Source: a virus
IMG/VR virus record: IMGVR_UViG_3300007512_001547
Location: 1-64,000 of that record
DNA length: 64,000 nt
Direction: 5' to 3' (one strand)
Shown: in pieces, positions 5,610 to 58,251 of the stretch
How positions within the stretch are numbered: position 1 is the first letter of the stretch
Layout: each line of letters begins with the position of its first letter
Translations under genes and position numbers: made by a program
Notes under the pieces: model-generated
What the model was told of the DNA's origin: nothing
What the model saw: the letters and a program-made list of their open reading frames with translations, nothing else
Database searches by the model: none

Positions 5610-5816
5610 ATGATAAAAGAAGCACTTATAAAAAAACTAGAAGGCGATATTGCTAAAATAGAAGCTAACATTGTAACTTACCTAAGCAATCCTATTTCTG
5701 TAGTAGCAGATCATATTGATTATATTACTCCTATTGAAAAGGAATTAGAAAAGTTATCTGCGGCGAAAGGTAAATTAGTATCTTTAAAAAATATTAAATT
5801 TAAGTTAGATGAATGA
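5610..5816 (+). CDS. Small coiled-coil protein ahead of sufB (68 aa)
   Basis: Not recognised. Helical and charged throughout, with heptad-like spacing in the first and last thirds. It is the first gene after the consensus promoter and overlaps sufB by 8 nt, so it is tied to the Fe-S operon. No cysteines, so it is not itself an Fe-S carrier. The role may be as an assembly helper (inference). Confidence 0.75.
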
Positions 5817-7239
5817 TGTACTTCAAGACCGACTTAACAAAAAATATGATGCTGGGTTTACAACAAACGTTGAATCAGTAACATTACCTCCAGGCCTTAA
5901 CGAAGACATAGTAACACAAATCTCAAAAATTAAAAAAGAACCTAAATGGTTGCTTGAATTTAGATTAAAAGCATACCAACGATGGAAAATTTTAAAACAG
6001 CCTGATTGGGCAAATCTTAATATTAAACCTATAGACTATCAAGCAATATCATATTACTCAGCACCAAAGCCAGGTCCTAAATCATATGATGATGTAGATC
6101 CTGAAATTAAAAAAGACTTTGAAAAGTTAGGCATACCATTAGCAGAAAGAGCCGCACTAGCAGGTGTAGCCGTTGATGCAGTATTTGATTCTGTATCTAT
6201 TGCAACTACATTCAAAGATAAGTTAGCAGAACTAGGAATTATATTTTGTTCATTCTCAGAAGCAGTACAAAAACATCCTGATCTAGTAAAAAAATATATG
6301 GGCTCTGTTATTCCAATTACAGACAATTATTTTGCAACATTAAATTCTGCTGTCTTTACAGATGGAACTTTTGTTTATGTTCCTAAAGGAGTAAGATGTC
6401 CTATGGAACTATCTACATACTTTAGAATCAATGCGGCTAACACAGGACAATTTGAACGGACTTTAATTATAGCTGACGAAGGAAGTTATGTAAGTTATTT
6501 AGAAGGCTGTACTGCACCAATAAGAAAAGAAAGTCAATTACACGCCGCCAACGTAGAACTTGTAGCATTAGATGATGCAGAAATAAAATATTCAACAGTA
6601 CAAAATTGGTACCCAGGAGATAAAGATGGCAAAGGCGGCATATACAATTTTGTAACTAAACGTGGAAAATGTAAAGGAACAAACTCAAAAATTTCTTGGA
6701 CACAAGTAGAAACAGGATCAGCTATTACTTGGAAGTATCCAAGTTGTATATTACAAGGAGATAATTCTACTGGTGAATTTTATTCTGTTGCTGTAACAAA
6801 CAATTATCAACAAGCAGATACAGGTACTAAAATGATACACCTAGGCAAAAATACAAAATCAACTATTGTATCTAAAGGAATTTCGTTAGGACACTCATCA
6901 AATACATATAGAGGTTTAGTAAAAATTAATAAAAATGCTGACAATTCAAAAAACTTTACTCAATGCGATTCATTAATGCTAGGTAATAATTGTTCTGCTA
7001 GAACTATACCATATATTGAAAATAAAAATGTATCTAGTAATTGCAGTCACGAAGCAACTACATCCAAAATTAATGATGAACAATTATTTTATGCAAGGCA
7101 ACGTGGACTAGACGAAGAAAATGCTACTAATTTAATTGTAGCAGGATTCTGTAAACAAGTATTTCAAAACTTACCTATGGAGTTTGCAGTAGAAGCCAAT
7201 AAACTATTAGAAGTTAGTATGGAAGGAGCAGTTGGATAA
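5809..7239 (+). CDS. sufB: Fe-S cluster scaffold SufB
   Basis: SufB is the scaffold of the SufBC2D complex on which sulfide and iron are assembled. The product is full length (476 residues) and follows the family from [12 protein letters not shown] through [13 protein letters not shown] to HEATTSKI and the C-terminal [15 protein letters not shown]386 in TQCDSLML lies at the same distance from the C-terminus as the essential E. coli Cys405, and is the likely assembly cysteine. It is followed by sufE and sufC in the same run, with a short sufD 6.5 kb on. A phage SufB can build clusters only if sulfur arrives through SufE from a desulfurase, which must be the host's. Identity is secure. Confidence 0.97.
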
Positions 7240-7667
7240 TGGCAAATAGATTTCATTTAGCAATACCGGCTGGAGATATAGATACGTCAATAAAATTTTA
7301 TTGTGACATATTAGGCTGTAAAAGAGGTATGGCAGAATTTAAGTATCCAGATGCTTGGGCAGACATTGACTTTTGGGGCAACGAATTAACACTACACGCA
7401 ACAGATCCTAACAAAAAAAATATAGGTGAAAGACACAATGTAGATATGGGTAATGTATCTGTTCCTCACTTTGGTGTGCATTTAGACGCACAAACATTTA
7501 AAAATGTAAAAGAAAGACTAATACAAAATAATATAAAATTTATAGATCCACCTTTTATAAGATTTAAAGGTGAAAGCAGAGAACAGGAAACAATGTTTAT
7601 CGAAGACCCAAATGGCAACTGCTTAGAAATTAAAACAATGAGGAATCCTGATGAATTATTCAAATAA
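7239..7667 (+). CDS. Glyoxalase/VOC superfamily protein
   Basis: Small metalloenzyme of the vicinal-oxygen-chelate fold (142 residues) with two beta-alpha-beta-beta-beta repeats. Candidate metal ligands are His6 (RFHLAIP), the His of VPHFGVHLD and the Glu of NCLEIKT, the usual pattern. The VOC family is broad (lyases, dioxygenases, resistance proteins) and the substrate cannot be told. It starts on the last base of the sufB stop and overlaps sufE, so it is built into the Fe-S operon, which is unusual. Confidence 0.85.
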   Translation: MANRFHLAIPAGDIDTSIKFYCDILGCKRGMAEFKYPDAWADIDFWGNELTLHATDPNKKNIGERHNVDMGNVSVPHFGVHLDAQTFKNVKERLIQNNIKFIDPPFIRFKGESREQETMFIEDPNGNCLEIKTMRNPDELFK

Positions 7668-8058
7668 ACTTACAGAATATAAAAATAATATCGAAGCCTT
7701 ACAAGAAATCGATAATTTAGAAGTTTATAGATGGTTAATTTCACTTGGTGCAAAGTTAGACGATGATCCTTTAAGTGAAGAAAAACGTATTGACAAAAAT
7801 AAAGTTAGTCGTTGTCAATTTGACTTATACGTTGATTTTGAAGATGGCAAATTTAAAGCATGGAGTAATGCCGCAATAGCAGGTGGCTATGCTTATATAT
7901 TGTTAGATATTTTTAATTCACTACCTCCAACAACAAAAATTACAGTAGAAGATTTTCAACAAATTAAACTAGACAAACTATTAACAATGAATAGAACAAC
8001 CGGCTTCTATCAAATGATTGAAATGATTATAAAGAAAATACAAAATGCTAAAAATTAA
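7651..8058 (+). CDS. sufE: Sulfur-acceptor protein SufE
   Basis: SufE takes persulfide sulfur from SufS and passes it to SufB. The 135-residue product matches the family in length and order. The acceptor cysteine is C55 in VSRCQFDLYVD, equivalent to the Cys-Gln segment of bacterial SufE, and the helical YRWLISLG and GFYQMIEMI stretches fit. It overlaps the VOC gene by 17 nt and sufC by 14 nt. The desulfurase partner SufS is absent from the window, so the host enzyme is the probable sulfur donor. Confidence 0.93.
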   Translation: MNYSNKLTEYKNNIEALQEIDNLEVYRWLISLGAKLDDDPLSEEKRIDKNKVSRCQFDLYVDFEDGKFKAWSNAAIAGGYAYILLDIFNSLPPTTKITVEDFQQIKLDKLLTMNRTTGFYQMIEMIIKKIQNAKN

Positions 8059-8782
8059 AAATTTAAAAGTATCAATTAATAATAAAGAAATAATAAAAGA
8101 TTTAAATCTTGAAATTAAACAAGGCGAGATTCATGCCCTCATGGGTCCAAACGGTTCTGGCAAAAGTACTTTGTCTAATGTTTTAGCTGGAAAAGATGGC
8201 TATAATGTTACAGGAGAGATACTTTACAAAGGAGAAGATCTTTTAAAAATGTCAATAGAAGAAAGAGCAAGAAAAGGATTGTTTATGGCTTTTCAATATC
8301 CTATAGAAATTCCTGGTGTTAATACAATTAATTTTTTAAAAAGTTCTTTAAATGTGGTTCGAAAATCTAATAAAAAAGAAGCAATAGATACTTTTGAATT
8401 TTTAGATTTAGTAAAAGAAAAAGCTAAAGCTCTTAATGTTAATGGTTCTATACTTAATAGACATCTAAACGTAGGGTTCTCGGGTGGAGAAAAAAAGAAA
8501 AATGAAATATTACAAATGTCTGTTTTAGAACCTATGTTTGCTATTTTGGACGAAACAGATTCTGGATTAGACATTGATTCTTTAAAAATAATTTCTAATG
8601 GTATTAATTCTTTAAGAAGTATATGTAGATCTTTTTTAATTATTACACACTATCAACGTTTATTAGAACACATTAAACCAGACTTTGTTCACGTACTTGC
8701 AGATGGAAAAATAATCAAAACTGGTTGCAGTGAATTAGCTGAAGAATTAGACAAAGTAGGATATGGAGATAAAAATAGTTAG
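8045..8782 (+). CDS. sufC: SufC ATPase of the Fe-S assembly complex
   Basis: ABC-type ATPase that drives the conformational change of SufBCD. The 245-residue product has Walker A GPNGSGKST near residue 34, the SufC-type signature FSGGEKKKNE near 145, and Walker B FAILDETDSGLD. The length is standard and all motifs are intact. It overlaps sufE upstream, and the TonB receptor starts 20 nt before its end. Identity is secure. Confidence 0.97.
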   Translation: MLKIKNLKVSINNKEIIKDLNLEIKQGEIHALMGPNGSGKSTLSNVLAGKDGYNVTGEILYKGEDLLKMSIEERARKGLFMAFQYPIEIPGVNTINFLKSSLNVVRKSNKKEAIDTFEFLDLVKEKAKALNVNGSILNRHLNVGFSGGEKKKNEILQMSVLEPMFAILDETDSGLDIDSLKIISNGINSLRSICRSFLIITHYQRLLEHIKPDFVHVLADGKIIKTGCSELAEELDKVGYGDKNS

Positions 8783-10436
8783 AATAGTTCTAATATTATT
8801 CTTTGCATGGATTACTACGATTCAAGCAGAGATTGTAACAATAGAAAAACGTGGTGTTGCAGATGATATTATAACTTGTGAATGGGAAAACCAAGCAGGT
8901 GTTCCTTGTGTTACAATTAGCAAATCATTACCCAATTCAAATGCAATATCAGATAAAGTTTCTCCCACAACTGTAATCACTAAAAAACAAATTGAAGAAA
9001 ATAATTTAATTGACTTACCTAAAGTTTTAAATTTTGTTAATGGTATCAATGTAACACAATCTGGATCAACTGGACAACAAACGTCTGTGTTTATGAGAGG
9101 TACAAACTCAAACCATACATTAGTTTTATTAAATGGCATACCTATTAATGATTTTTCTACTCCAACAGGAGCATTTGACTTTGGACAAGACTTTATGTCT
9201 ACTGTTACGCAAGTTGAAGTTTATAAAGGAAGTGCTGGTGCTCACTTCGGTGCTGATGCTATTGGTGGTGCTATTAATTTTGTAACTACTGTTGACTATG
9301 AAAACAAATTTTCAGTTGGTGGCAATGGTGACAGTAAAACTATACAAGGAAATTACACAAAAGTTTTAAACGACTGGCATATAAACGTACAAGGTGGAAC
9401 ACACGAATCTGAAACAGTATCAGCATTATCAGGTGGTGCTGAAACAGATGGAACTAAAAATAAATCAATTGGCGTTAATATTATAAAATGGTTTTCAGAC
9501 AAATTAAAATTTAGATCTAGTTTGTTTACACGAAACACATTTACAGAGTTAGATGGACATTCGTTGGCTATTGAAAATGGATTTAGCGATAATTCGTTTT
9601 ATGCTTTTCAAACCGGATTTGATTATATAACTAAAGACTCCATCAACTCCCTAACACTTCATACACACGAATACGATAGAGAATATGAGTCTGACAATTA
9701 CAATTCTAAATCTTATACTATCAGAACAGAACACCAAACTAAAAAGTATGGATTAGGATTTGATTACAAATACGATCAATCACTAACTGCTGATAATGAT
9801 AATGTTGGCTTATTTGGAAATTTTAATTACAACATTTTTTCATTTCATGCAAGAAAAGATAATGACAACGATAGTTATAAAGTAGGATTTTTTAAAGAGA
9901 TAGCACCTAACTTTAATATTAGAGGTAACCATTCAACAGGATATAAAAATACAACTCTTTATACACTAGAAGAACAAAGTAATTCAAACGAATTAAGTTT
10001 TGATTATAATGATTTGACATTATCTCTTTTTCAATCTGATATTGGTGATTTAAACACAGATGGCGTAGAACTATCTTATAATATTGACAACTTTACAATA
10101 TATGGATCACATTTAAACAGTAAGAAAAATGATACAATTCAATTAAGACGTCCTGAATGGATTCTTGGTGTTAATCATAATACACTATTACCTGACAATT
10201 TCCAATTAATTACAAATTACAAATTTGTAGGAGAGCATCTAGACGTACATAATTCCAATTGGTCTACTATTCCTATGCCAGAAACACACTTATTAGACAT
10301 AGGTATAACAAAAAACTATTGGGGTTACGAGTTAGGTTTAAATATTAATAACATATTAGATGAAGATTATGAAGCACCACATGGTTTTAGTCAAAATGGT
10401 CGAAACCTTAATTTTATCTTTAAAAGAAAATTCTAA
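8763..10436 (+). CDS. TonB-dependent outer-membrane receptor (BtuB-like)
   Basis: Outer-membrane barrel with plug, powered by TonB, for iron chelates or cobalamin. A signal peptide (hydrophobic about residues 5-18, cleavage likely after AWITTIQA) leads to a plug domain with VFMRGTNSNHTLVLLNG, the STPTGAFDFG turn and the GSAGAHFGADAIGGAINF close. Alternating strands follow and the protein ends in Phe, as barrels recognised by BAM do. At 557 residues it is short for the family. No standard TonB box is obvious, and two Cys lie just after the signal. It is embedded in the suf operon by a 20-nt overlap. A phage TonB receptor is unusual; uptake and superinfection blocking are both possible. Confidence 0.88.
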   Translation: MEIKIVRIVLILFFAWITTIQAEIVTIEKRGVADDIITCEWENQAGVPCVTISKSLPNSNAISDKVSPTTVITKKQIEENNLIDLPKVLNFVNGINVTQSGSTGQQTSVFMRGTNSNHTLVLLNGIPINDFSTPTGAFDFGQDFMSTVTQVEVYKGSAGAHFGADAIGGAINFVTTVDYENKFSVGGNGDSKTIQGNYTKVLNDWHINVQGGTHESETVSALSGGAETDGTKNKSIGVNIIKWFSDKLKFRSSLFTRNTFTELDGHSLAIENGFSDNSFYAFQTGFDYITKDSINSLTLHTHEYDREYESDNYNSKSYTIRTEHQTKKYGLGFDYKYDQSLTADNDNVGLFGNFNYNIFSFHARKDNDNDSYKVGFFKEIAPNFNIRGNHSTGYKNTTLYTLEEQSNSNELSFDYNDLTLSLFQSDIGDLNTDGVELSYNIDNFTIYGSHLNSKKNDTIQLRRPEWILGVNHNTLLPDNFQLITNYKFVGEHLDVHNSNWSTIPMPETHLLDIGITKNYWGYELGLNINNILDEDYEAPHGFSQNGRNLNFIFKRKF

Positions 10437-11997: not shown

Positions 11998-12590
11998 TGA
12001 AAATTCAAATTATTATAGAACCAACATTTAGTAAACAATGGCCTAAATTAAGAATAAGGTTAAATGATACTGACTGGTTTAATGATTTTTGTAAACCCAA
12101 TGAAGGAAAACATTTTGTTTTAACAATGTATCCTGAAGAAATTAACCTTCAAGACTCTAATGCAATATCAATTAAACATTATGATAAATCTAGAAACGAT
12201 ACAATAGTTGACAAAGAAGGCAATATTGAAAAAGATAGAGCAATAATATTAAAATCAATATCTTTTAACGACTTAAAAGTACCAGAAGTTATTCTATACA
12301 AACAACGTTTCTTTCCTGACTGGCCTGATCAACCATTCTACACCACGAACAATTTATATTTTGGATACAATGGGGAATATTTTTATAATTTTAAAAAAGA
12401 TGTTAACAAAATGTACTATGAAAATTTAATACAAAAAGAATTACTAGCAAATATTAATAATAAAAAAATTATGACTTTACCAAGTGGAGAGGAAATAGAA
12501 AGTTTTGAATTTACAGGAAAATTAGTTAGTGGTAGCGAAAAAGAAAACATTACCTTAGATGAATTGTATAACATAGTTAATAAAAAATGA
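11997..12590 (+). CDS. Beta-rich paralogue protein A (197 aa)
   Basis: Function not recognised. The sequence suggests a beta-sandwich of the carbohydrate-binding or jelly-roll type: short strands, DTDWFN and SISFNDLKV turns, then FFPDWP and a YFGYNGEYFYNF segment. The last features recur in the next gene and in the N-terminal part of the 3584 protein, so the three are probably homologous. The TAATG junction with the radical SAM gene suggests coupling. A partner or substrate-binding module is the simplest guess. Confidence 0.7.
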   Translation: MKIQIIIEPTFSKQWPKLRIRLNDTDWFNDFCKPNEGKHFVLTMYPEEINLQDSNAISIKHYDKSRNDTIVDKEGNIEKDRAIILKSISFNDLKVPEVILYKQRFFPDWPDQPFYTTNNLYFGYNGEYFYNFKKDVNKMYYENLIQKELLANINNKKIMTLPSGEEIESFEFTGKLVSGSEKENITLDELYNIVNKK

Positions 12591-13003
12591 AAATAAAATT
12601 AAATTTAGAAACCGAATATAATAAAACTGCTCCACAATGTAGAATTTTTAGTCTAAAAGATTCTGAAACTGTTCAACTTGAAAAAGAATCAGTTGTAGAA
12701 TTAGATTTTAACTTACAAAATAAAGATACACTATCAATAAATTTTTTTAATAAAGATGGAGTTGACGATAATGTAATTAAAATTAATGAAATACATATCG
12801 ATGATATTAATATACAACATTTTATATACAATAGTACATTTTTTCCAGAATATAATGAAAATTGGTATGCTGAACAAGTTGTAAAGCCTCCTAAGTTTTA
12901 TTCTCCTTGTACAGAATTGCGACACAATGGTATATGGATTTTAAATATTACTACACCCATATGGAAAATGATGATGAACGAATGGATTAAAGATGACAGA
13001 TAA
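12587..13003 (+). CDS. Beta-rich paralogue protein B (138 aa)
   Basis: Unrecognised family, shorter homologue of the preceding protein. Shared features are the IKINEIHIDDI strand, STFFPEYN and the LRHNGIWIL segment. It overlaps the genes on both sides (4 nt upstream, 11 nt downstream). Two adjacent copies point to local duplication. Confidence 0.7.
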   Translation: MKIKLNLETEYNKTAPQCRIFSLKDSETVQLEKESVVELDFNLQNKDTLSINFFNKDGVDDNVIKINEIHIDDINIQHFIYNSTFFPEYNENWYAEQVVKPPKFYSPCTELRHNGIWILNITTPIWKMMMNEWIKDDR

Positions 13004-13718
13004 TATTCCAAAATTACTACAAGATGCAATTAACGAAAACACTTACGACATCGATGTAATAACAAAGAATTTAAAACTGCCATGGCTTAAACTAGATCTC
13101 AAATTTGATCAACCTACTGACAAAGACATTAATGAATTGATTGCTACTGACGATTGGCGTAAAAAATGGAACTTTACAGGTTTAGAAAAGAATGCATATC
13201 AAGTAAAAAATTGGAATGGTAATATTTTCTTTGGTCCTAAAGATTTCCAAAACTTTTTAAAAATATCTAACGACTTAGAACACGACCATGATGAAGATAG
13301 TAAATGTAGATTTTTTAGAAACAAAATAGAATACGATTGGTACGTTGATTCTAATAATTTTACAAGACAACAAGTTGAAAAATTACTTCCAGATGTTAAT
13401 GACATTAATATAGTAAATTCTTATACACTTCCACCCGGAGGATACGTATTTCCGCATAGAGATTATGCTATTGATAAAATGGGTCTTGCAAAATTATATG
13501 TTGCAATCAAATGGGGTGATGGTAATATTTTTGGACAATATGGCTGTGGTAATATTCCTATAAACGAAGGTGATATATTTTTAATTAACAATTACACTCT
13601 TCCACATTGGGTTTATAATGGCAGTAAAGAAAACAGAATTGTAATTGATATAAGTGCTAATTTAAATTCTCCAAACATTAAAGAAAGTATTATTAGGGCA
13701 TTTAAAAAATGGAAATAA
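12993..13718 (+). CDS. 2OG-Fe(II) oxygenase, Asp/Asn hydroxylase-like
   Basis: Double-stranded beta-helix dioxygenase that uses 2-oxoglutarate, O2 and Fe(II). The iron triad is H155-x-D157 (PHRDY) and H205 (LPHWVYN), with R215 ten residues later as the 2OG-binding Arg; this layout fits the aspartyl/asparaginyl beta-hydroxylase group. 241 residues. The first 110 residues are unassigned. The target may be a protein side chain or a small molecule. It sits between the beta-rich paralogues and mini-sufD, overlapping both neighbours. Confidence 0.82.
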   Translation: MTDNIPKLLQDAINENTYDIDVITKNLKLPWLKLDLKFDQPTDKDINELIATDDWRKKWNFTGLEKNAYQVKNWNGNIFFGPKDFQNFLKISNDLEHDHDEDSKCRFFRNKIEYDWYVDSNNFTRQQVEKLLPDVNDINIVNSYTLPPGGYVFPHRDYAIDKMGLAKLYVAIKWGDGNIFGQYGCGNIPINEGDIFLINNYTLPHWVYNGSKENRIVIDISANLNSPNIKESIIRAFKKWK

Positions 13719-14275
13719 AAAACAACTACAAAAAAATTATAAACTTAAAAGAAAATTCAGTATTAAATTACAACTTAAAAGCAAACTCGTCTGCTTGTTT
13801 ATTCTTTTGTGATTATGCTGGTTTCATAACAGAAATTAACATAAACCTAGATACAAATTCTTCATGTGAGTTATATGGTTTCTTTAAAAATACTAATGAA
13901 AACACTGCTGTTATTACTAAAGTAATACACAAAGGTAATAATTCAAAATGCGACCAAGATTTTAGATTTGTAAACAAAAATAGTATTAGTTCTTTTAAAG
14001 GTTTAATATCTGTTCCTAAACATATTAAAAATTGTGAAAGTCATATGACAAACAAGAATCTTTTACTAGATAATACTTCTCAAGCATTCGCAAAACCAGA
14101 ATTAGATATTAAAAATTCTAATGTTGTTTGTACACATAGCAGTACAACTGGCACGTTAGATGAAGATCAAATATTTTATATTCAAAGCAGAGGACTTTCT
14201 TACGAGGAATCTGTTAATATGCTCATAGAAGCATTTTATCAAGATATTAAAAGTAAAATGGAGGCAAGTTTATGA
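13709..14275 (+). CDS. sufD: Miniature SufD (C-terminal half only)
   Basis: SufD pairs with SufB in the SufBC2D complex. This 188-residue protein matches only the C-terminal half of the usual 400-plus residue SufD: beta-helix strands, then AKPELDI, CTHSSTTG, and LDEDQIFYIQSRGLSYEES. H143 in CTHSS corresponds by context to E. coli SufD His360, the residue proposed to face SufB Cys405 in cluster assembly. The frame opens with its own ATG and no remnant of the N-terminal half lies upstream, where the oxygenase occupies the DNA, so it looks like a reduced but functional gene. A second SufB-like half is the alternative reading. Confidence 0.85.
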   Translation: MEIKNNYKKIINLKENSVLNYNLKANSSACLFFCDYAGFITEININLDTNSSCELYGFFKNTNENTAVITKVIHKGNNSKCDQDFRFVNKNSISSFKGLISVPKHIKNCESHMTNKNLLLDNTSQAFAKPELDIKNSNVVCTHSSTTGTLDEDQIFYIQSRGLSYEESVNMLIEAFYQDIKSKMEASL

Positions 14276-16755: not shown

Positions 16756-18102
16756 ATGTGCGGAATAGTCGGAATATACAACGTTCCTGAAGCCTCTAAA
16801 ATTGCGGCCTTAGGAATTCATGGATTACAACATCGAGGACAAGAAGGTGCGGGAATTATTTCATACAACAAAGAATTTCATATCCATGGCGACTATGGAC
16901 GTGTTGATCATATTTTTGGTAGCGACAAAGTTATAAAAAATCTTCCAGGTAGTACAGCAATTGGACACGTTAGATACAGCACTACTGGAGGCACAGGAAA
17001 AAGTAATGTTCAACCTTTATTTTATAATTTAGACTTTGGCGGCTTTGCTATTGCCCACAATGGTGACTTTACTGATTCTGCATATTGGAGAGAAAAGCTA
17101 ACCAAAGAAGGTGCAATATTTCAAACAACAACTGACACAGAAATTATTCCACATTTGATTGCTCGAACAAAAGGTATTGATCCTGTGGATCGTTTACTTA
17201 CAGTATTGAATAAAGTAGAAGGTGCATTTAGCATAGTAACTTTACTTGATGATAAATTAGTTGTTGCTCGAGATCCATATGGCTTTCGTCCTTTAGTTAT
17301 AGGTCAATACGAAGAAGGGTACGCAATAGCATCAGAAACCTGTGCTCTTGATTTAATTGGTGCAACAAACATTAAAGATATCGATCCTGGTACAGTAATC
17401 ATATTCAGTAATGGAAAAAAAGAAACATTTTATTTAGATAAAAAAGTTACAAAACATTTTTGTATATTTGAACACATTTATTTTTCACGTCCTGATACTG
17501 TTATTGATAATCAATTAGTATACGAAGTTCGTAAAAGAATAGGAGAAGAATTAGCAAAAGAAAGTTATGTTGAATCTGACATGGTTGTTCCTGTACCTGA
17601 TTCTGGAATGGCATCTGCACTTGGATATGCTAATCAATCAAAAGTACCTTTTGAACTAGGACTTACACGAAGTCATTACAAAGGAAGAACATTTATTGAA
17701 CCTACACAAAAAATACGAGACTTAGGTGTAAGATTAAAACATAGTGCTATGCAATTGTTTAAAGATAAAACAGTTACCGTTATTGACGATTCTATTGTAC
17801 GTGGAACTACATCTAAAAAAATTATAAAAATGATACGAAAAGCAGGTGCTAAAAAAATACATATGCGTATCTCATCTCCTCCTGTAACTGGACCATGCCA
17901 TTATGGTATTGATACTCCAAACAGAAAAGAACTTATAGCTGGAGAAAGTAATGTAAACGAAATTAAAGAATTTATTGGTGCTGATTCATTAGAGTATATT
18001 TCTATAGAAGGACTACATAAAGCTATGAAAAGTAAGGGCTACTGCGACGCTTGTTTTACAGGCAACTATCCAGTTAAAAAACAATTGGCTATAAACGATT
18101 AA
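16756..18102 (+). CDS. purF: Amidophosphoribosyltransferase PurF
   Basis: First committed step of purine synthesis: PRPP plus glutamine to phosphoribosylamine. The N-terminal glutamine amidotransferase domain opens with the nucleophile directly as Cys2 (MCGIVGIYN), so no propeptide needs removal. The PRTase domain carries the PRPP loop TVIDDSIVRGTTS near residue 342. 448 residues, slightly short but complete. It would lift purine supply for phage replication, in line with thyX. Marine phages carry several pur genes. The stop TAA is part of the late promoter of the next gene. Confidence 0.96.
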   Translation: MCGIVGIYNVPEASKIAALGIHGLQHRGQEGAGIISYNKEFHIHGDYGRVDHIFGSDKVIKNLPGSTAIGHVRYSTTGGTGKSNVQPLFYNLDFGGFAIAHNGDFTDSAYWREKLTKEGAIFQTTTDTEIIPHLIARTKGIDPVDRLLTVLNKVEGAFSIVTLLDDKLVVARDPYGFRPLVIGQYEEGYAIASETCALDLIGATNIKDIDPGTVIIFSNGKKETFYLDKKVTKHFCIFEHIYFSRPDTVIDNQLVYEVRKRIGEELAKESYVESDMVVPVPDSGMASALGYANQSKVPFELGLTRSHYKGRTFIEPTQKIRDLGVRLKHSAMQLFKDKTVTVIDDSIVRGTTSKKIIKMIRKAGAKKIHMRISSPPVTGPCHYGIDTPNRKELIAGESNVNEIKEFIGADSLEYISIEGLHKAMKSKGYCDACFTGNYPVKKQLAIND

Positions 18103-20839: not shown

Positions 20840-21901
20840 GTGAAAAAGATCTTTTTAGTTACAGTGTTTGTTCTCTTTTCCTCAATATCTTTTGCCGAAA
20901 TTGATATCGATTGGAAGTGGGGAAAGGTATTCGATAGTGTTGTATTAATCAGCGGTGAGAATGTAGCTGAAACAATACCTAAAAGTCCTGACGTAGCACC
21001 ACACGAAAAAGAACAAAAGTTTGATTCTCTTAAACCAAGGATTATTCCATATGGCATGGGAACAGGTTTTTTTATTAATAAAATTCATATAGTAACAAAT
21101 TATCATGTTATTAAAAATTTTGATAAGATATCAATTTATGCTTTTAATCATTTGTTTCCAATAACAGATGTTACACTTGTAGGTTATGATGAAGAAATTG
21201 ATATTGCAGTACTACAAATTAATGAAGACGTTGAACATCATTTTTTAAGATGGTCAGATACTGCTCCTCTTATCGGGGAAGATGTTTATGCACTTGGACA
21301 TGGAATGAGTCAATTATGGTCATTAACAAAAGGTATTTTAAGTTATGATTATCGACAAAATCCAGGCACAAGTTTTGTTCATTATATGCAAACTGATGCT
21401 GTTATAAATTCTGGTAACTCGGGAGGTCCATTGCTTAATGAAGATGGCGAAGTTATAGGTGTTAATACCTTACTAATCTCACCAGACAAATATTATGTTG
21501 GATACGGTTATATCCTTCCAACGCCTTTAGTCAAACGAGCAGTTACTCAAATTTTAGCAACTGGAGAACACATTAAACCGTTTATGGGAATTCTAATGGG
21601 TCATATTGAAGGACGAGAACAGTACGAAGAATTAAAAGCAAAAGAAATAGGTCACTATTTAGAAATTAAAGAAGTTACTAAAAATTCGCCAGCAGACCAT
21701 TTTGGATTATTAGCAGGCGATATAATAATTTCAATTGACGATAAAGATATTCAAGTAGTACCTCAAGTAATTGAATTGCTATGGGAACGAAATCCTGGTG
21801 ACCAAGTAAGTTTCAAAGTTTATAGAGATCATGAATATCATACTATCGATATCGTTTTAGGAAAAGCAAAAAACCAAAAACCCAACAAATATCCAAAATA
21901 A
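20840..21901 (+). CDS. Secreted HtrA/DegP-like serine protease with PDZ domain
   Basis: Periplasmic trypsin-fold protease and quality-control factor. A signal peptide (residues 1-19, VFVLFSSISFA) is followed by the protease domain with the complete triad H89 (TNYHVI), D121 (EIDIAV) and S194 (SGNSGGP), and one PDZ domain from about residue 250 (SPADHFGLLAGDIIISIDD). 353 residues, the size of DegS or short DegQ forms. The start is GTG, chosen because the late element sits 5 nt before it and the signal peptide begins there. Encoded just ahead of the secreted FecR protein, it may process or protect exported phage products (inference). An HtrA in a phage is rare. Confidence 0.92.
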   Translation: MKKIFLVTVFVLFSSISFAEIDIDWKWGKVFDSVVLISGENVAETIPKSPDVAPHEKEQKFDSLKPRIIPYGMGTGFFINKIHIVTNYHVIKNFDKISIYAFNHLFPITDVTLVGYDEEIDIAVLQINEDVEHHFLRWSDTAPLIGEDVYALGHGMSQLWSLTKGILSYDYRQNPGTSFVHYMQTDAVINSGNSGGPLLNEDGEVIGVNTLLISPDKYYVGYGYILPTPLVKRAVTQILATGEHIKPFMGILMGHIEGREQYEELKAKEIGHYLEIKEVTKNSPADHFGLLAGDIIISIDDKDIQVVPQVIELLWERNPGDQVSFKVYRDHEYHTIDIVLGKAKNQKPNKYPK

Positions 21902-27265: not shown

Positions 27266-29116
27266 ATGAAAAAATTAGTTAATTACATCCTAATAGCAAT
27301 AATGCTGAACTGGAACGTGACTGTTTTTGCGGACGACGATGTTGAGGGTTGTAAATGGGAAGTAGTTGAAGAAACTGAACAGTATCTACAGGAACAATGT
27401 ATAGGAGTAGACGGTCAATATAGTGCAAGAATAAGATCTAAACCTATCGACAACAGTATAGTATATGTAAAAACTGAAAAGAAAGATGCAAATCCTATAC
27501 AAAAATATAGAGACAGTGAAGTATTAAAAACACCGATTGGTGTACATGACGATTTAAAAATTGCAGAGTTAAAAGAAGAAGTTGAAACAACTGCAAAAAA
27601 AATTGATCAACTAAAAATAGATCAAGCAGTAGAAGAAAAGAAAAAAATTGAGTTAGATGTAGTTGAAAAAGCAATTGAACACATTGAAGAAAAGAAAACT
27701 GCAGAAACAGAAAAAGCACAAGTACTTGATCCAAAACTTAAAAATGAATTAAACAAAAAAGACATACATGAAGAGTCAGATAAAAAAATTATTGCAGAAG
27801 CAGAAGAAAAAGAATGGAAAGAAGTAGATGAAAATGTTGAAGTTGCGGAAGTAGAAAAAGAGCCTAAAATTAATTGGATGACATTGTATCAAATGTTACC
27901 AAGACTTATTTTAGAAAACGAAAAAGTTAAAGCGGCAGAATTAGATTATGAAGCGGCATTAGAAACATTAAAATCAGAATATTCTGCATACTATCCTCAA
28001 GTAACAATTACTGTAGGAAACAACTGGGAAGACGACAGATCAGTTTCTAAAGGCACATATCCTAGCAATACAATTACACATGACGGAAAACACGGTGTAC
28101 AAAAATCTATTTCAATTACACAAATGTTATGGGACTTTGGAAGAACAACGGCTGTTATCGACAAAGCAAAACACACAGCACAACAGGCCTATTATAGATT
28201 AGAACTTGCAACAGAAGATGTTGTTATGGAAGCCATTAATGCATGGTTAAATCTACAGAAAGCATACAACACACACGAAGCAAATAAAAAAGTAGAAGCA
28301 AATGCAAAAATTACACTTGCAATGACAATAGAGAAAGTTAAAGCAGGACAAGGTTCTAAACTAGAACAACTGCAAATAGAACAGCAATATAGAACATATC
28401 AAACAATAGTAATGACAAGTAACCTACAACTTGATTCAGCAATACAGAGATTCCAAAATGTATGGAGATACTATCCTACAGATGTTGCAAGTATGCCAAT
28501 ACCATTTGCAGACTTATTAGGTATCATACCTGATTCAGGAAGATCGGTAACTGACAACACTACATTAAAAATTGCACATTTAGATATTGAGATTGCAAAA
28601 GAACAAAAGAAATTTAGCGATGCAGAGTTTAGACCTAGAATAGATGGTAAACTTTCTTACACAGAAAAAGACGGAGAGTTAAGTGGTGGATATGATACTG
28701 ATGACGCACAAAAAGAAGAGTTTAGAGCAGATATTACATTAACTTGGAAACTGTTTGCTGGAGGTAAAAACAAACATATGAATAGTGCTGATAGAATAAG
28801 AATGGAAGCCGCTATTACAAGATATGCTGATACTAAAAGAACAGTACAAGAACAATTTACCAATGCATGGAACAACTATGTATTAGTTGAAAAAAATCTA
28901 GAGACTCTAAAAAGAACAGTAGAAATCAATGATGAGATGTACAAACTTACACTTGCAGACTTTCAAGCAGGTAATTCACCTATAATGGCTGTGTTTGGCA
29001 TGAAGACAGCACATATTATGAGTGAAGTTGCTTATGCAAATGCTCAACTAGATTTATTAATTGCTAGATACCAATTACATAAAGTTCTAGGACTCGTAGA
29101 TCCAAAACTAGACTAA
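27266..29116 (+). CDS. TolC-like outer-membrane channel protein with N-terminal coiled-coil extension
   Basis: TolC trimers form the outer-membrane exit duct of type I secretion. A signal peptide (residues 1-22, IAIMLNWNVTVFA) precedes an extra charged region of about 180 residues, then the outer membrane efflux domain from about residue 205: two helical hairpin repeats with strands (YYPQVTITVGNNW, QMLWDFGRT, ADITLTWKLFAGGKN). The core is normal length. The N-terminal extension is rich in Glu and Lys and echoes the coil of the FecR protein. It lies directly between the cargo gene and the ABC/HlyD genes, so it very likely serves them. Confidence 0.9.
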   Translation: MKKLVNYILIAIMLNWNVTVFADDDVEGCKWEVVEETEQYLQEQCIGVDGQYSARIRSKPIDNSIVYVKTEKKDANPIQKYRDSEVLKTPIGVHDDLKIAELKEEVETTAKKIDQLKIDQAVEEKKKIELDVVEKAIEHIEEKKTAETEKAQVLDPKLKNELNKKDIHEESDKKIIAEAEEKEWKEVDENVEVAEVEKEPKINWMTLYQMLPRLILENEKVKAAELDYEAALETLKSEYSAYYPQVTITVGNNWEDDRSVSKGTYPSNTITHDGKHGVQKSISITQMLWDFGRTTAVIDKAKHTAQQAYYRLELATEDVVMEAINAWLNLQKAYNTHEANKKVEANAKITLAMTIEKVKAGQGSKLEQLQIEQQYRTYQTIVMTSNLQLDSAIQRFQNVWRYYPTDVASMPIPFADLLGIIPDSGRSVTDNTTLKIAHLDIEIAKEQKKFSDAEFRPRIDGKLSYTEKDGELSGGYDTDDAQKEEFRADITLTWKLFAGGKNKHMNSADRIRMEAAITRYADTKRTVQEQFTNAWNNYVLVEKNLETLKRTVEINDEMYKLTLADFQAGNSPIMAVFGMKTAHIMSEVAYANAQLDLLIARYQLHKVLGLVDPKLD

Positions 29117-29139: not shown

Positions 29140-29895
29140 ATGAAAAACCTAATACGACATCTGTCCAAAGAACCAGGCACGGCATCAATGCTGTTTACCA
29201 GCAGTTTCATAATTGGTATTTGTGCTTTGGCCCCTGCACTATTTGTTATAATTGTTCTTAACAAGTATCTAACATCAGGTGTCACAGCAACATTAATAAG
29301 TTTGTCAATTGGAGCAGTGTTGGCCATAGCATTTGAGTTCACTTTTAGACAGAACAGAGGCAAGATGATGACCGCTTTCAACCAACGTGTGTATGATCCT
29401 CTGTTGAAAGCATTTGGAGAAAAATTTAGCAAAGCAGGACAACTCACTGCACAGCAGTATAAAAAATTAGACAGTGCAGGCACAATGATTAAAAATATGA
29501 GGACATCATCGATGACTAGTTGGATATTGGACTGGCCTTTTGTGTTGATGTTTTTGATTGTGTTGCTGTACATAAATTGGGCCGCATCAATAATCACAGC
29601 AATATTCATGTTGGTAATGTACTTTTTGATAACATGGAAAAAGAACGTGTCCATGTCACAGGACACACAGAGCAACATAGAAATATTTTTAAACGGATTA
29701 CAGACAATCGTGATCATGTCAGTTGGTGCAATGATGATTATAGCCGGCACACTGGACATTGGATTACTGATCGGTTCTAACATATTGGCCGCCCGAGCAT
29801 TACAAGGAACCAGCAAGTATGCCAAGGCAAACGAATTTTTAAAGCAACGAGATCAAGCAGTTGGAGAAATAATAAATTATGTCAAAAGCAAGTAG
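29140..29895 (+). CDS. Type I secretion ABC transporter membrane domain without ATPase
   Basis: Matches the transmembrane domain of PrtD/HlyB-type exporters: the opening SSFIIGICALAPALFVIIVLNKYL resembles the family's first helix, and about six hydrophobic segments follow with the expected cytosolic loops. It stops at 251 residues; no peptidase C39 domain and no nucleotide-binding domain are present, although full exporters run to about 560-700. The HlyD-like gene overlaps the end, so there is no room for a frameshifted ATPase. Either the ATPase is supplied in trans, or the protein has lost active transport. Base composition is richer in GC than the cyclase gene nearby. Confidence 0.82.
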   Translation: MKNLIRHLSKEPGTASMLFTSSFIIGICALAPALFVIIVLNKYLTSGVTATLISLSIGAVLAIAFEFTFRQNRGKMMTAFNQRVYDPLLKAFGEKFSKAGQLTAQQYKKLDSAGTMIKNMRTSSMTSWILDWPFVLMFLIVLLYINWAASIITAIFMLVMYFLITWKKNVSMSQDTQSNIEIFLNGLQTIVIMSVGAMMIIAGTLDIGLLIGSNILAARALQGTSKYAKANEFLKQRDQAVGEIINYVKSK

Positions 29896-30580
29896 TAGAT
29901 TCTTTTTTGCGATAACAACACTGTTTGTTATATTCTTCGTTTGGATGGTATTTGCAAAAGTAGACATAACAACACAGGCAGTTGGAATTGTTGTACCTGA
30001 GAAAAACATCACAAAACTAGGCACAATGGTCACAGGAGAAATTGTTGCTGTGAATTACAAGCAAGGAGATGTTGTCAAGAAAGGTGATGTCATAATAACA
30101 ATCAATCCAGGAGTTGGTTACGAACCTAGAAACATTGTGGCAAACATTGATGGCAGGATACAAGAACTCACTTATAGAAATCCAGGTTCCGTTGTAAAAC
30201 AGGGTGACGGACTTGCAATACTTGTACCATTAGATCAGAAACTTATAGTTAATGGAAGGCTTCTTGTAAAAGATAGAGGTTATGTCAAGGTTGGAATGGA
30301 CGCAAAAGTGAGACTTGCCAATCAAGACCAATTAAAATTTGATAGCATTGATGCAAAAATAATATCCATATCTCCAGATGCTGTACAGTCTGACAGTGCC
30401 GCATGGTATGACATAGAACTAGAAATAGAAAAAGAATTTTTCACAAGTGGTGACACGACTTACAATCTTGTGCCTGGTATCCATGTGTATGTTTTCATAT
30501 TAACAGGAGAGAGAACAGTATTAAGTTATATAACAACACCTTTCCATAACGGAATAGGGCAGGCACTACAGGAAAGGTAA
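29879..30580 (+). CDS. Short HlyD-like membrane fusion protein
   Basis: Periplasmic adaptor linking the inner-membrane exporter to TolC. One N-terminal membrane helix (FFFAITTLFVIFFVWMVFA) is followed by the two lipoyl half-motifs (GEIVAVNYKQGDVVKKGDVI and GRIQELTYRNPGSVVKQGD) and a beta-barrel domain (KVGMDAKVRL). At 233 residues it is half the usual HlyD size, because the long helical hairpin that normally separates the lipoyl halves is replaced by about 20 residues. It overlaps the ABC gene and touches the cyclase start. How it would reach TolC without the hairpin is unclear; the TolC extension might compensate (inference). Confidence 0.85.
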   Translation: MSKASSRFFFAITTLFVIFFVWMVFAKVDITTQAVGIVVPEKNITKLGTMVTGEIVAVNYKQGDVVKKGDVIITINPGVGYEPRNIVANIDGRIQELTYRNPGSVVKQGDGLAILVPLDQKLIVNGRLLVKDRGYVKVGMDAKVRLANQDQLKFDSIDAKIISISPDAVQSDSAAWYDIELEIEKEFFTSGDTTYNLVPGIHVYVFILTGERTVLSYITTPFHNGIGQALQER

Positions 30581-32508
30581 TGAGATTTTTTACAAGCATA
30601 TGGATGGTTATTATTGTTGCTATTGTATTGCTAGGTGTCAGAGTAAACAATAACGATACTGTAAAAACTTTAAGATACAAAACGTGGGATTACTTTCAAA
30701 CTATACATCCTAGACAAGACGTTAGTGATTTAGTTACTATTGTTGATATAGGCGAAAAAGATATTGCAAAGTATGGACAATGGCCATGGCCTAGACATAT
30801 AATGGCAATGCTTCATGCACGATTAGGCGACGCAGGAGCAGTAGTAATTAATTACAATATTCTTTTTGCTGAACCAGATCGTATGGGATCAACCCAATAT
30901 CTAAATTCTTTTCCGATGTCTGATGAAACTAGAGAACTATTACAAAAAAATTTAGTAGACACAGACAAAGTTTTTTCTATAGTAATAAAAGAATCTGGCA
31001 ATACTATTTTAATGATGAGTGTTAAAAATAACATTGATAACATTTTACCTAGCACAACGCAAATTATAAAAAAAGGAAATGTAGAGCCATGGTTATGGAA
31101 CTATGCAGGTATAGTACCTCCTTTGACTGAACTTACAGTAGGTGTAGCAGGAAGTGGTGTAAATGTAACAGCACCCGAACCTGATTCTGTTGTAAGAAAA
31201 ATGCCAATACTAATAACAATAGGCAACAAAATATATCCTAGTATGTTAATTGAAAATGTTAGAGTAATTAACAAATCGAAAAGAATTAAAGTTGTTGCTA
31301 AAGAACACGGTATAGACGAAATCCTTGTTAAAAAGAATGCTGGAATACCTGTAAATCATAATGCAGAAATGTATATAAATTATGCAGATCCAAAAAAATA
31401 TAATCACGTATCTGCTGACTATGTTTTAAGTTCTGAATTTGATGCAAATACAGTTAAAGGAAAAATAGTAGTTGTTGGATTAGATGCCGCGGGATTAAGT
31501 GTGTTAAAATATACACCGTTTGGATTAGCTACAGATCAAGAAATTACTGCTCAAGCATTAGATACATTACTAACAGGAAAATATTTGACTAGGCTTCCAC
31601 AGGCAGATACATATGAAATTTTGTTTATGGGTTTACTAGGATTATTAATGATTATATTAATTCCTAGAGTATCAGTATTATTTTCTATTCCGTTATTAGT
31701 TTTTGTATTAGGTGGAATAAGTTATGCATCATTTATGGCTTATGCAAATAAAGGATTTTTAATTGACCCATCATTTGCAGTACTTTATATATTTTTAATT
31801 TGGTCACATAGCACATACAATAATTTTGCAACACAAAGTAGATTAAGAAAACAAATTAAAAAACAATTTGAACATTATTTAGATCCTGGCATGGTTAAAA
31901 AGTTACAAAAGAATCCATCATTGTTAAAATTAGGTGGCGAAACAAAAACAATGACTTTCTTATTTTCAGACATAAGAGGATTTACACCTATTAGTGAAAA
32001 GTATAAAGGTAATCCAGAAGGACTTACAAAATTAATTAATAGATTTTTAACTAGGATGACCAATGTTATTATTGCTAACGGCGGCACAATAGATAAATTT
32101 ATGGGCGACTGTATAATGGCATTTTGGAATGCTCCACTTGATGTACCAAATCATCAAGTATTAGCAATACAAACTGCTCTACAAATGCAAACCGAATTAG
32201 CAAAATTAAATAAAGAATTAGAAGCTGAAGGATTACCAAACATTAACATAGGCATAGGAATCAACACAGGTGAAGCACTTGTAGGCAACATGGGTTCTGA
32301 TCAAAGATTTGATTATTCTGTAATAGGTGACTCTGTTAACCTTGCATCACGTTTAGAAAGCTCTAGTAAAACATTAGGAAAAACTTTAGTAATTTCAGAC
32401 AATACAGTGCAAGATATTTACGAAGGTGTATTTCCGTTTGAGTATATTGACCATATTACAGTCAAAGGCAAAACAGAAGAAATCAAAGTGTATACAATCA
32501 AAAGTTAA
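30580..32508 (+). CDS. CHASE2-domain adenylate cyclase
   Basis: Membrane sensor that makes a cyclic nucleotide. An N-terminal helix anchors a periplasmic CHASE2 domain (about 30-340: TIVDIGEKDIAKYGQWPWPR, VVINYNILFAEPD), then two or three helices (about 350-420) and a class III cyclase domain. The metal-binding Asps are D464 (FSDIRGFT) and D510 (KFMGDC). Purine-selecting residues K506 and D578 point to ATP, and the transition-state pair N587 and R591 (VNLASR) is present, so the enzyme should be active. 642 residues, complete. It starts on the last base of the HlyD stop. CHASE2 cyclases are often linked with FecR-type genes in bacteria, suggesting the module was taken as a block. Confidence 0.95.
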   Translation: MRFFTSIWMVIIVAIVLLGVRVNNNDTVKTLRYKTWDYFQTIHPRQDVSDLVTIVDIGEKDIAKYGQWPWPRHIMAMLHARLGDAGAVVINYNILFAEPDRMGSTQYLNSFPMSDETRELLQKNLVDTDKVFSIVIKESGNTILMMSVKNNIDNILPSTTQIIKKGNVEPWLWNYAGIVPPLTELTVGVAGSGVNVTAPEPDSVVRKMPILITIGNKIYPSMLIENVRVINKSKRIKVVAKEHGIDEILVKKNAGIPVNHNAEMYINYADPKKYNHVSADYVLSSEFDANTVKGKIVVVGLDAAGLSVLKYTPFGLATDQEITAQALDTLLTGKYLTRLPQADTYEILFMGLLGLLMIILIPRVSVLFSIPLLVFVLGGISYASFMAYANKGFLIDPSFAVLYIFLIWSHSTYNNFATQSRLRKQIKKQFEHYLDPGMVKKLQKNPSLLKLGGETKTMTFLFSDIRGFTPISEKYKGNPEGLTKLINRFLTRMTNVIIANGGTIDKFMGDCIMAFWNAPLDVPNHQVLAIQTALQMQTELAKLNKELEAEGLPNINIGIGINTGEALVGNMGSDQRFDYSVIGDSVNLASRLESSSKTLGKTLVISDNTVQDIYEGVFPFEYIDHITVKGKTEEIKVYTIKS

Positions 32509-32519: not shown

Positions 32520-32801
32520 ATGAATCAATTTTTTAGTCTAGTAGCAGAATTAGGATTACCAATTGCCGCAACAGTGGGAATGGGTGTATTCATACTGTTC
32601 ATAATCAAATATATTTTAAACGGTATTGTAAATTCAATTAAATTTATTGAAAGTGTTATATCTCAACTTGATAACAGAGTAAAAACAATGAACAACGATA
32701 TTATAAAAATTGATCAAGAAGTGTCAGAGCAACTAGGCATACCTGTAGACACAGACAGAGTGGCTAGGGCAGACGGCAAAGTAGATGCGAGGAAAGACTA
32801 A
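32520..32801 (+). CDS. Small membrane protein with coiled-coil tail, paralogue 1
   Basis: 93 residues: short N-terminus, one membrane helix (LPIAATVGMGVFILFIIKYI), then a charged coil (LDNRVKTMNNDIIKID). This design recalls BhlA/UviB-type holin-like proteins, but the match is by topology only. The next gene is a paralogue. Late expression fits a lysis or secretion-accessory role. Confidence 0.75.
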   Translation: MNQFFSLVAELGLPIAATVGMGVFILFIIKYILNGIVNSIKFIESVISQLDNRVKTMNNDIIKIDQEVSEQLGIPVDTDRVARADGKVDARKD

Positions 32802-33049
32802 TGGACGTTGTAAGCAAAACAATGACAGTAACGACAATCATACAGGACTATGGGTTCCCCACTGTCGCTGTGTTCTTCCTTGCATATTTTATATGGTTCC
32901 TTTGGAAATACATTACAAACGAAATTACTCCAAAATTAAATTCCACATCAGCAACACTTATCAAACTCATTGATAGAGTACGTATGCTGGACAATGACCT
33001 TATTCGACTACAGGCTAAAGTGAGAACTGTTAGCAAAAAGAAGAAGTAG
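32801..33049 (+). CDS. Small membrane protein with coiled-coil tail, paralogue 2
   Basis: 82 residues with the same plan as the preceding gene: FPTVAVFFLAYFIWFLWKYI helix and LIDRVRMLDNDLIRLQAKV coil, then a KKKK end. Starts on the last base of the paralogue's stop. The DNA is richer in GC at its start than the first copy, so the pair is either old or from different sources. Confidence 0.75.
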   Translation: MDVVSKTMTVTTIIQDYGFPTVAVFFLAYFIWFLWKYITNEITPKLNSTSATLIKLIDRVRMLDNDLIRLQAKVRTVSKKKK

Positions 33050-33404: not shown

Positions 33405-33728
33405 ATGGAAAGTAAAATCAGAAGAAGTCTGGTTAAAACCTTGACTTGGAGAATCCTTGCGACTACTGATACATTTTTAATCAGTTGGATAATTACAGGT
33501 TACTTAACACTAGCCGGTGCCATTGCAGGTATTGAGGTAATAACAAAAATGTTTTTATATTATGCTCACGAAAGAGGTTGGAGCAAAATTAAATGGGGTT
33601 ACATAGGACCTGAGGAACACACTCATATATTTCCTTTTGCAGAAGATTGGAAACCTATAAAATACGATTTTAGAGATAAAAATACTCATATAAAATATGA
33701 TTTTAGAGATAAAAAAAACGATGAGTAA
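33405..33728 (+). CDS. DUF2061 membrane protein
   Basis: Small inner-membrane protein of the DUF2061 family: RRSLVKTLTWRILATTDTFLISWIITG and GIEVITKMFLYYAHERGW are hallmarks, giving two membrane helices. 107 residues. The C-terminal tail (IKYDFRDKNTH then IKYDFRDKKND) comes from a 33-bp in-frame duplication. Function of the family is unknown. Confidence 0.88.
   Translation: MESKIRRSLVKTLTWRILATTDTFLISWIITGYLTLAGAIAGIEVITKMFLYYAHERGWSKIKWGYIGPEEHTHIFPFAEDWKPIKYDFRDKNTHIKYDFRDKKNDE
33656..33716 (+). repeat. 33-bp in-frame tandem duplication
   Basis: The unit starting at 33656 is repeated from 33689, nearly identical for 28 nt, adding 11 residues to the DUF2061 protein tail. The near identity suggests a recent event. 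Confidence 0.85.
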
Positions 33729-39784: not shown

Positions 39785-40120
39785 ATGAAATGGTTTGATA
39801 TAACAGATTCAGCAAAAGCACAAATGGAAAAATTGCTTTCTAAAAATCCTGGCAAGTATGCTGTAAGTTTGGCAGTATTAGGAGGAGGATGTGCAGGTTT
39901 CAAATACGATTGGGGATTTATTGATTCTAAAGATAAAGTAGGCTCCGAAGACATCACTGAAGATTGGGGTACTGGTCGTTTTGTTGTTGATGAAACTTCT
40001 ATGCTCTATATTGCAGGCACAAAAATTGATTGGATAGAAGAAACATTTGGTTCTCAATTTGAAATTGTCAATCCAAACAGTTCAAGCTCTTGTGGATGTG
40101 GAGAAAGTTTTGGTGTCTAA
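39785..40120 (+). CDS. A-type Fe-S carrier protein (IscA/SufA/ErpA)
   Basis: Carries and delivers Fe-S clusters. All three family cysteines are present: C36 (GGGCAGFKY), C103 and C105 (SSSCGCGESF). 111 residues, standard length. A-type carriers are frequent in marine T4-like phages. Here it has its own late promoter, apart from the suf run with the consensus promoter, so delivery may be timed for virion proteins or late enzymes. Stop overlaps the next start as TAATG. Confidence 0.95.
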   Translation: MKWFDITDSAKAQMEKLLSKNPGKYAVSLAVLGGGCAGFKYDWGFIDSKDKVGSEDITEDWGTGRFVVDETSMLYIAGTKIDWIEETFGSQFEIVNPNSSSSCGCGESFGV

Positions 40121-56693: not shown

Positions 56694-57536
56694 ATGAAGA
56701 ATTATTATGATATGCTAGGTGTGGCTGAAAACGCATCTAATGACCAAATAAAAAAGGCTTTTAAAAGTATTGCTAAAAAAGAACACCCAGATCGTGGTGG
56801 CGATGAAGTAAAATTTAAAGAAGCCAACGAAGCATACGACACATTAAAAGATACAAAGAAAAGACACGAGTATGATACTGTAAGAAAGTATGGTCAAAGT
56901 ATGGGTGGACAAGGTGGAAACTTCCATTTTACTTCAGAAGACTTTTTTGGCGATGATATATTTGAAAATTTCTTTTCTGGATTTGGCGGACCTAATGTGC
57001 GAACAAGATTCCGTCAAAGACAACGTGCAAACAAATCAGTAAATGTACGTATGGCAATATCAATTAAAGAAGCAATGAATAGTATGGAAAAAACTATTAA
57101 CTATAGATTGCCATCAGGCAAAGAAGAATTTGCCACAGTTAAAATACCTGCTGGTATACAACATGGAGTAACTTTCAAATATAAAGGTATGGGAGATAAT
57201 TCACTTAAAAGTATACCACGTGGAGATTTATTAGTACAAATGAGTGTATTAGATTCTGATGGTTATACAAGAGACGGAAACGACTTACATACTAATAAAA
57301 CTATTGATTGTTTTCAAGCTATAAGAGGATGTGTAATAGAATTAAAAACATTAACTGATTCTACTATAAAAGTGCAAGTACCTGCAGGCACACAACCAGA
57401 TACATTAATTGCTTGTAAGGGACAAGGTATGCCTATACACAAAACGTTAAATATTAGAGGAAATCTGTATGTGAAAATTATAGTTTTAATTCCACAACTA
57501 TCAGCTGGTGACTTAAAGAAAATAAAAGATTTATGA
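56694..57536 (+). CDS. DnaJ-like co-chaperone (class B, CbpA-like)
   Basis: Stimulates the DnaK ATPase. The J domain fills residues 1-65 with the essential HPD at 31-33. A Gly/Phe-rich linker (GGQGGNFHFTSEDFFGDDIF) leads to the two C-terminal substrate domains (VNVRMAISIKEAMN, RGNLYVKIIVLIPQ). The zinc-finger region of class A DnaJ is absent. 280 residues. With dnaK at 565 the phage has a J-protein/Hsp70 pair. Confidence 0.95.
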   Translation: MKNYYDMLGVAENASNDQIKKAFKSIAKKEHPDRGGDEVKFKEANEAYDTLKDTKKRHEYDTVRKYGQSMGGQGGNFHFTSEDFFGDDIFENFFSGFGGPNVRTRFRQRQRANKSVNVRMAISIKEAMNSMEKTINYRLPSGKEEFATVKIPAGIQHGVTFKYKGMGDNSLKSIPRGDLLVQMSVLDSDGYTRDGNDLHTNKTIDCFQAIRGCVIELKTLTDSTIKVQVPAGTQPDTLIACKGQGMPIHKTLNIRGNLYVKIIVLIPQLSAGDLKKIKDL

Positions 57537-58036: not shown

Positions 58037-58251
58037 AAAAGAAAAAGGTATGGAAAATTTTAGATGGAACTTACAAGAAACCAATAGGCAAAGAGGATGT
58101 AGAGAGACTAATAGCGGCAGTACAACAGGAATGCTATTGGGACGACAGAGATGTGGAAACTTGGGACGAAATAAACTCGGGCAAAATAGATTGGAGTGGA
58201 GATGTTAGAAGCAAACGAAAGCCTAGAAAACATATTCGAAAACGCAGTTAA
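58003..58251 (+). CDS. Hypothetical basic protein (82 aa)
   Basis: Overlaps the deformylase by 34 nt and clpA by about 50 nt. Lys/Arg-rich ends (KEKNNRIKKKK, KRKPRKHIRKR) with an acidic centre (ECYWDDRDVETWDE). No family recognised; overlap on both sides makes it less certain. Confidence 0.55.
   Translation: MGHGKEKNNRIKKKKVWKILDGTYKKPIGKEDVERLIAAVQQECYWDDRDVETWDEINSGKIDWSGDVRSKRKPRKHIRKRS

Follow-up and report, generated by a model that had tools for sequence, protein, structure and literature searches.

A phage CHASE2 class III cyclase at the end of a type I secretion-like gene module, with sensor and enzyme halves that appear to be exchanged separately

Why would a phage carry a membrane-bound enzyme predicted to make cAMP, and what might such an enzyme sense? 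The question is raised by one gene in a stretch of 64,000 nucleotides (hereafter, the window), which comprises positions 1 to 64,000 of the IMG/VR record IMGVR_UViG_3300007512_001547. The original prediction described the gene as a complete CHASE2 adenylate cyclase in a phage, responding to a periplasmic signal, and proposed that it could alter host catabolite control or bacterial immunity based on cyclic nucleotides. The description is well supported apart from the assignment of one residue; the membrane CHASE2 adenylate cyclase stands, and the proposed purposes draw no direct support from the gene's context.

The source record has 137,583 bases and is probably a piece of a larger genome. We regard it as phage because it encodes a clamp loader, a T4-type DNA polymerase (E 4e-192), a baseplate/tail-fibre connector, tail-fibre-like proteins and virion structural proteins. 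The clamp loader is nearest to those of PA5oct-like Pseudomonas phages (54%). Searches of the record with T4 portal and Gp23 profiles gave no match, and no control gave a match either.

Several other genes in the record deserve mention. An iron-sulphur assembly set (5809-8782, 13709-14275 and 39785-40120) consists of SufB, SufE, SufC, a shortened SufD-like SUFBD-core protein and an A-type carrier; SufB is rare among the isolate phages in the collection searched. SufC is adjoined by a TonB-dependent receptor with a Plug domain (8763-10436), and an outer membrane receptor is unusual in a phage. A chaperone set (28-2454, 56694-57536 and 58196-60544) comprises a full-length DnaK (HSP70 E 1e-273), a Clp-type ATPase, and Hsp20-like and DnaJ-like proteins, the last two assigned by reading the sequence alone; some of the isolate-phage records that match DnaK look bacterial. 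There is also a PurF-like amidophosphoribosyltransferase with glutamine amidotransferase and phosphoribosyltransferase domains (16756-18102), and the right part of the record holds several radical SAM proteins and a Nol-like carbamoyltransferase.

The cyclase gene runs uninterrupted from its ATG to its stop codon (Table 1), and its start codon shares one base with the stop codon of hlyD (TAATG). Both of its Pfam domains score far above the cut-off, CHASE2 at E 2e-41 and Guanylate_cyc at E 2e-23. An AlphaFold model, built with 25 sequences and with a mean pLDDT of 86, shows an N-terminal helix (residues 7-23) before CHASE2, a mixed alpha/beta domain, three more helices (342-363, 366-391 and 398-430) and a cyclase fold, so that, as in CHASE2 sensors, one helix opens the protein and additional helices lie ahead of the output domain. 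Foldseek matched the model to CyaB, Cya2, CyaC and photoactivated cyclases. Because the predicted topology puts CHASE2 in the periplasm, the enzyme is expected to answer a periplasmic signal. The cyclase half has a dN/dS of about 0.09-0.14 among the pairs with estimable dS, and we conclude that the gene is maintained and not there by chance. Promoter and terminator scans gave nothing above chance.

Table 1. Genes of the export module and domains of its cyclase, with positions in the window
Feature	Position	Strand	Remarks
Large surface protein with FecR domain, coiled coil and cadherin domains, 1696 aa	22157..27247	+	without evident signal peptide
TolC/OEP-type outer membrane channel, long N-terminal extension	27266..29116	+	PF02321 E 6e-49
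ABC exporter transmembrane domain alone, 251 aa, without nucleotide-binding domain	29140..29895	+	
Shortened HlyD-type membrane fusion protein, 233 aa	29879..30580	+	HlyD_3 E 1e-17
CHASE2 class III nucleotide cyclase (AC)	30580..32508	+	642 aa; Pfam domains, complete ORF
CHASE2 domain, aa 14-356, predicted periplasmic	30619..31647	+	Pfam and AlphaFold helices
Class III cyclase domain, aa 455-641, with D464, K506, D510, S580, N587, R591	31942..32502	+	

In the active site, D464, K506, D510, N587 and R591 lie where the original prediction placed them, giving the two metal-binding Asp residues (D464 and D510) and the transition-state residues (N587 and R591) of a class III cyclase. The mis-assigned residue is D578, which had been named as adenine-selecting. 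It exists, but in alignments to CyaC (1wc1) and Pseudomonas aeruginosa CyaB (3r5g) the second adenine-contacting position is S580, which pairs with the Thr of their K/T pair, while D578 pairs with the Asp two residues upstream and is ruled out as a selector. Adenine is specified by Lys with Asp, Thr or Ser, as opposed to Glu and Cys, and here the alignments give K506/S580. Lys/Ser is the class IIIb-type combination among class III cyclases, and the pair is accordingly class IIIb-like, still pointing to an adenylate cyclase. The guanylyl cyclase Cya2 is among the closest solved relatives; in alignments, the K506 position is Glu in natural Cya2 (2w01) and Lys in the related adenylate/guanylate chimera 6fht. 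Of 130 phage cyclases aligned (129 distinct locus sequences and the window's own), 129 share all six residues (D464, K506, D510, S580, N587 and R591), the exception being that of Methylophilales phage Melnitz. The Melnitz cyclase (12001-14052 of its locus) has D at 580 and S at 587 and keeps both metal Asp residues and the Lys. The window's enzyme is thus intact and, as judged from its sequence, probably active as a membrane-bound cAMP maker.

The cyclase is the last of five tightly packed genes, following those for the FecR-cadherin protein, the OEP channel, the ABC membrane domain without ATPase and the small HlyD, and the FecR-cadherin protein is the probable export substrate. Compared with bacterial HlyD, the phage protein lacks the segment that separates the lipoyl halves. 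The ABC protein has no Pfam match; it matches PHROG ABC transporters, and its predicted fold matches HlyB, PCAT1 and PrtD, which in the model makes it an exporter membrane domain without an ATPase. The outer membrane channel and HlyD-type adaptor of type I secretion are therefore present, but we call the module T1SS-like and not a T1SS because its ABC protein has no nucleotide-binding domain. A search for an exporter ATPase in the 137,583-base record found one clear ABC ATPase, SufC, and export by this module is to be taken as predicted. Since the record is a fragment, an ATPase, or indeed a cAMP receptor, could sit outside it. Directly upstream of the FecR-cadherin gene lies an HtrA-like trypsin/PDZ protease (20840-21901), which we dropped as a module member as it is found in no other phage locus fetched. 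Downstream, the interval between the cyclase and the ORF at 33405 holds a pair of small ORFs (32520-33049) that include a hydrophobic stretch and have no Pfam match.

The FecR-cadherin, OEP, ABC and HlyD genes also precede the cyclase in many marine IMG/VR phage contigs, which are partly redundant, and the truncations recur with them. Measured stop-to-stop on complete ORFs, and leaving aside a few exceptional values in both sets, the ABC proteins have 253-295 residues in phage loci versus 531-772 in most bacterial loci, and the HlyD proteins 234-266 (one 323) versus 402-633. The phage ABC membrane domains are 33-96% identical to the window's and their frames are intact. Among isolate phages, the OEP gave no match, and the only HlyD matches were weak ones in records that are short or look bacterial. 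The literature searched yielded no description of a FecR-cadherin/OEP/ABC/HlyD/cyclase module, which is seemingly undescribed.

The cyclase itself is not new, contrary to what the original prediction implied. The recommended search for similar enzymes in other phages found them in the marine contigs and, already annotated, in Pelagibacter phage HTVC008M and Melnitz, where the gene closes a curli module that includes FecR. The adenylate cyclase and FecR genes of pelagiphage T8SS islands are a subject of Wittmers et al. (2022; PMC9599517), who inferred an alphaproteobacterial origin of the T8SS module, and pelagiphage curli genes were described by Zaragoza-Solas et al. (2020; PMC7029224). A match in Acinetobacter phage MD-2021a was rejected as a relative, its cyaA lying in a bacterial-type context. 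What appears to be new is the T1SS-like module together with a mosaic of sensor and enzyme.

This mosaic emerges from quickly built trees with selected representatives. For the CHASE2 half, all 19 phage proteins linked to T1SS genes fall into a single clade (support 100); for the cyclase half, the curli-linked proteins nest among these 19, and a constraint to one clade is rejected (AU p 4e-48). These trees group the sensor halves according to the export module, T1SS-like or curli, and spread the catalytic halves across both.

One contig, L002, holds both modules, in the order OEP-ABC-HlyD-AC1, an inverted curli module and AC2. Relative to AC1, the window's cyclase is 98% identical in the CHASE2 half and 83% in the cyclase half, whereas relative to the curli-linked AC2 the values are 24% and 87%. 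At the nucleotide level, the upstream HlyD and ABC genes are mostly 60-74% identical between the window and L002, about 1 kb of sensor is 96-100% identical and the cyclase 75-78%, with a dS of 0.04 for the sensor and 0.92 for the cyclase. The small ORFs after the window's cyclase fall outside this alignment. Four other contigs (L054, L068, L174 and L167) show the reverse, similar upstream genes and a divergent sensor, so far as sequence comparison goes breaking the linkage of the sensor to the adjoining HlyD. The CHASE2 half thus appears to be swapped between phages as a cassette, independently of the enzyme half. The window's record has one cyclase, and a possible origin is that, in an L002-like ancestor, the two cyclase domains recombined and the curli genes were lost. 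Across seven complete operons, whose pairs are non-independent, sensor distances correlate with those of OEP (rho 0.87), HlyD (0.78) and FecR (0.67), and do not track the adhesin C-terminus (0.13) or the cyclase half (-0.26). The match between sensor and module is a correlation among related genomes, and simple linkage inside recombining blocks could explain it.

Bacterial relatives place the cyclase in similar company. Among 79 bacterial CHASE2-cyclase loci, which are best matches and not a random sample, T1SS genes lie nearby in 37, FecR in 22 and curli genes in one; 28 have none of these. Seven low-GC (31-34%) marine alphaproteobacterial loci (L194, L217, L220, L221, L224, L227 and L239) have the order ABC-HlyD-cyclase. 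By a profile built from these loci, all seven have an HlyD whose N-terminus carries a cNMP-binding domain, and one or two small cNMP-binding ORFs 3' of the cyclase; Pfam confirms the HlyD domain (PF00027) in the five loci tested (L194, L217, L220, L221 and L239), and likewise the small proteins in five loci tested for them. Candidate cAMP readers therefore sit directly beside the enzyme. The MED657 'Rickettsiales' assembly includes, beside the bacterial locus L194, a contig (L176) with the phage-type module and a cyclase of 66% identity; the contig may come from a phage binned along with the bacterium, and so hint weakly at a host.

A search of 16 phage records (the window's and 15 others, among them the HTVC008M and Melnitz genomes, most of the rest being fragments) gave no PF00027 cNMP-binding protein, and the signal would therefore be read by host proteins. 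The reading that we favour, with moderate confidence, is of an active class IIIb-type adenylate cyclase serving as the module-specific envelope sensor of a surface-export island and making cAMP for host-encoded receptors. During infection, the phage would equip the surface of its host with an adhesin-like protein. CHASE2 would report on the export module's state in the periplasm, the FecR domain being the first candidate for its ligand, and the cytosolic cyclase domain would convert that signal into cAMP. Its readers could be host cNMP-binding proteins like those that accompany the bacterial operons, or a CRP-type regulator. A bolder generalization, which we offer tentatively and think rather unlikely as a whole, is that the surface-export modules of marine phages are interchangeable and come each with a CHASE2 sensor of its own, joined to a recombining catalytic domain, and that the cAMP so made commands host cNMP effectors, including the cNMP-domain HlyD that would gate secretion in some marine alphaproteobacteria.

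Other readings have to be weighed against that of a module-specific sensor. The cyclase might simply raise host cAMP and so act on a CRP-type regulon of catabolite or surface genes, its place beside export genes being inherited from a bacterial donor operon. A host receptor is required anyway, given the negative phage search, and bacterial CHASE2 cyclases already adjoin T1SS and FecR genes. Nevertheless, the phages keep the linkage to an export module in two module types, the sensor sorts with the module and no CRP target is indicated by sequence, so that we give this explanation a minority chance, though a real one. Catabolite control, as first suggested, draws no direct support from the context, in which the gene closes an export/adhesin operon.

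Decay is a much less probable account: the entire T1SS-like module could have been acquired from bacteria and be degenerating, to judge by its shortened HlyD and its lack of an ATPase domain, but identical truncations with intact frames in phages as diverged as the ABC proteins show them to be, purifying selection on the cyclase (dN/dS about 0.1) and the near-invariant active site all speak against it. We consider it slightly less probable still that the enzyme disturbs cyclic-nucleotide immunity such as Pycsar. PADLOC PycC models do match the cyclase domain (best E 2e-29), as is expected of class III cyclases, which share the fold. Pycsar signals, however, are cCMP or cUMP, the K506/S580 pair is of the adenylate type and, to our knowledge, 3',5'-cAMP is not an established CBASS or Pycsar signal. 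Pycsar joins a pyrimidine cyclase to an adjacent cyclic-nucleotide effector; here the setting is surface export, none of the neighbouring module proteins was recognised as a defence effector and no cNMP-binding domain was found in the record. The immunity role first proposed thus finds no direct support.

These comparisons show that the cyclase known from curli islands of phages repeatedly accompanies surface-export modules of two unrelated kinds at least, and that its sensor and enzyme halves have separate histories; they also provide concrete candidates for the readers of phage-made cAMP. It thereby becomes testable how phage second messengers contribute to remodelling the surface of the infected cell.

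The closest known system is the pelagiphage curli (T8SS) island, HTVC008M gp14-gp19, likewise a phage-borne surface-export module with FecR and a terminal homologous CHASE2 cyclase, 37% identical to the window's over 99% of the protein. The window's module differs in being T1SS-like (OEP, ABC membrane domain and HlyD) with a cadherin-type substrate in place of CsgF, CsgG and curlin, and its CHASE2 half belongs to another clade; CsgG (PF03783), a mark of the curli island, has no match in the 137,583-base fragment. In Melnitz (MZ577097), CHASE2 and cyclase lie at the end of the curli module just as the window's cyclase ends its own, although the catalytic domains are just about 40% identical. 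CyaC of Spirulina and CyaB of P. aeruginosa share the catalytic fold and the metal, lysine and transition-state residues, but their solved catalytic fragments are without CHASE2 and have Thr where the phage cyclase has Ser at the second purine-contacting position. Finally, alphaproteobacterial loci such as L194, L217, L221 and L239 have the ABC, HlyD and CHASE2 cyclase order of the phage module; at best, bacterial cyclase domains reach about 60% identity to that of the phage, and the FecR domain of an alphaproteobacterial secreted protein is about 47% identical to its phage counterpart. In the bacterial loci, the ABC protein keeps its ATPase and HlyD is full length, whereas the phage versions are truncated, and the low-GC marine loci add to HlyD and downstream of the cyclase the cNMP-binding domains and proteins for which the phage records searched gave no match.
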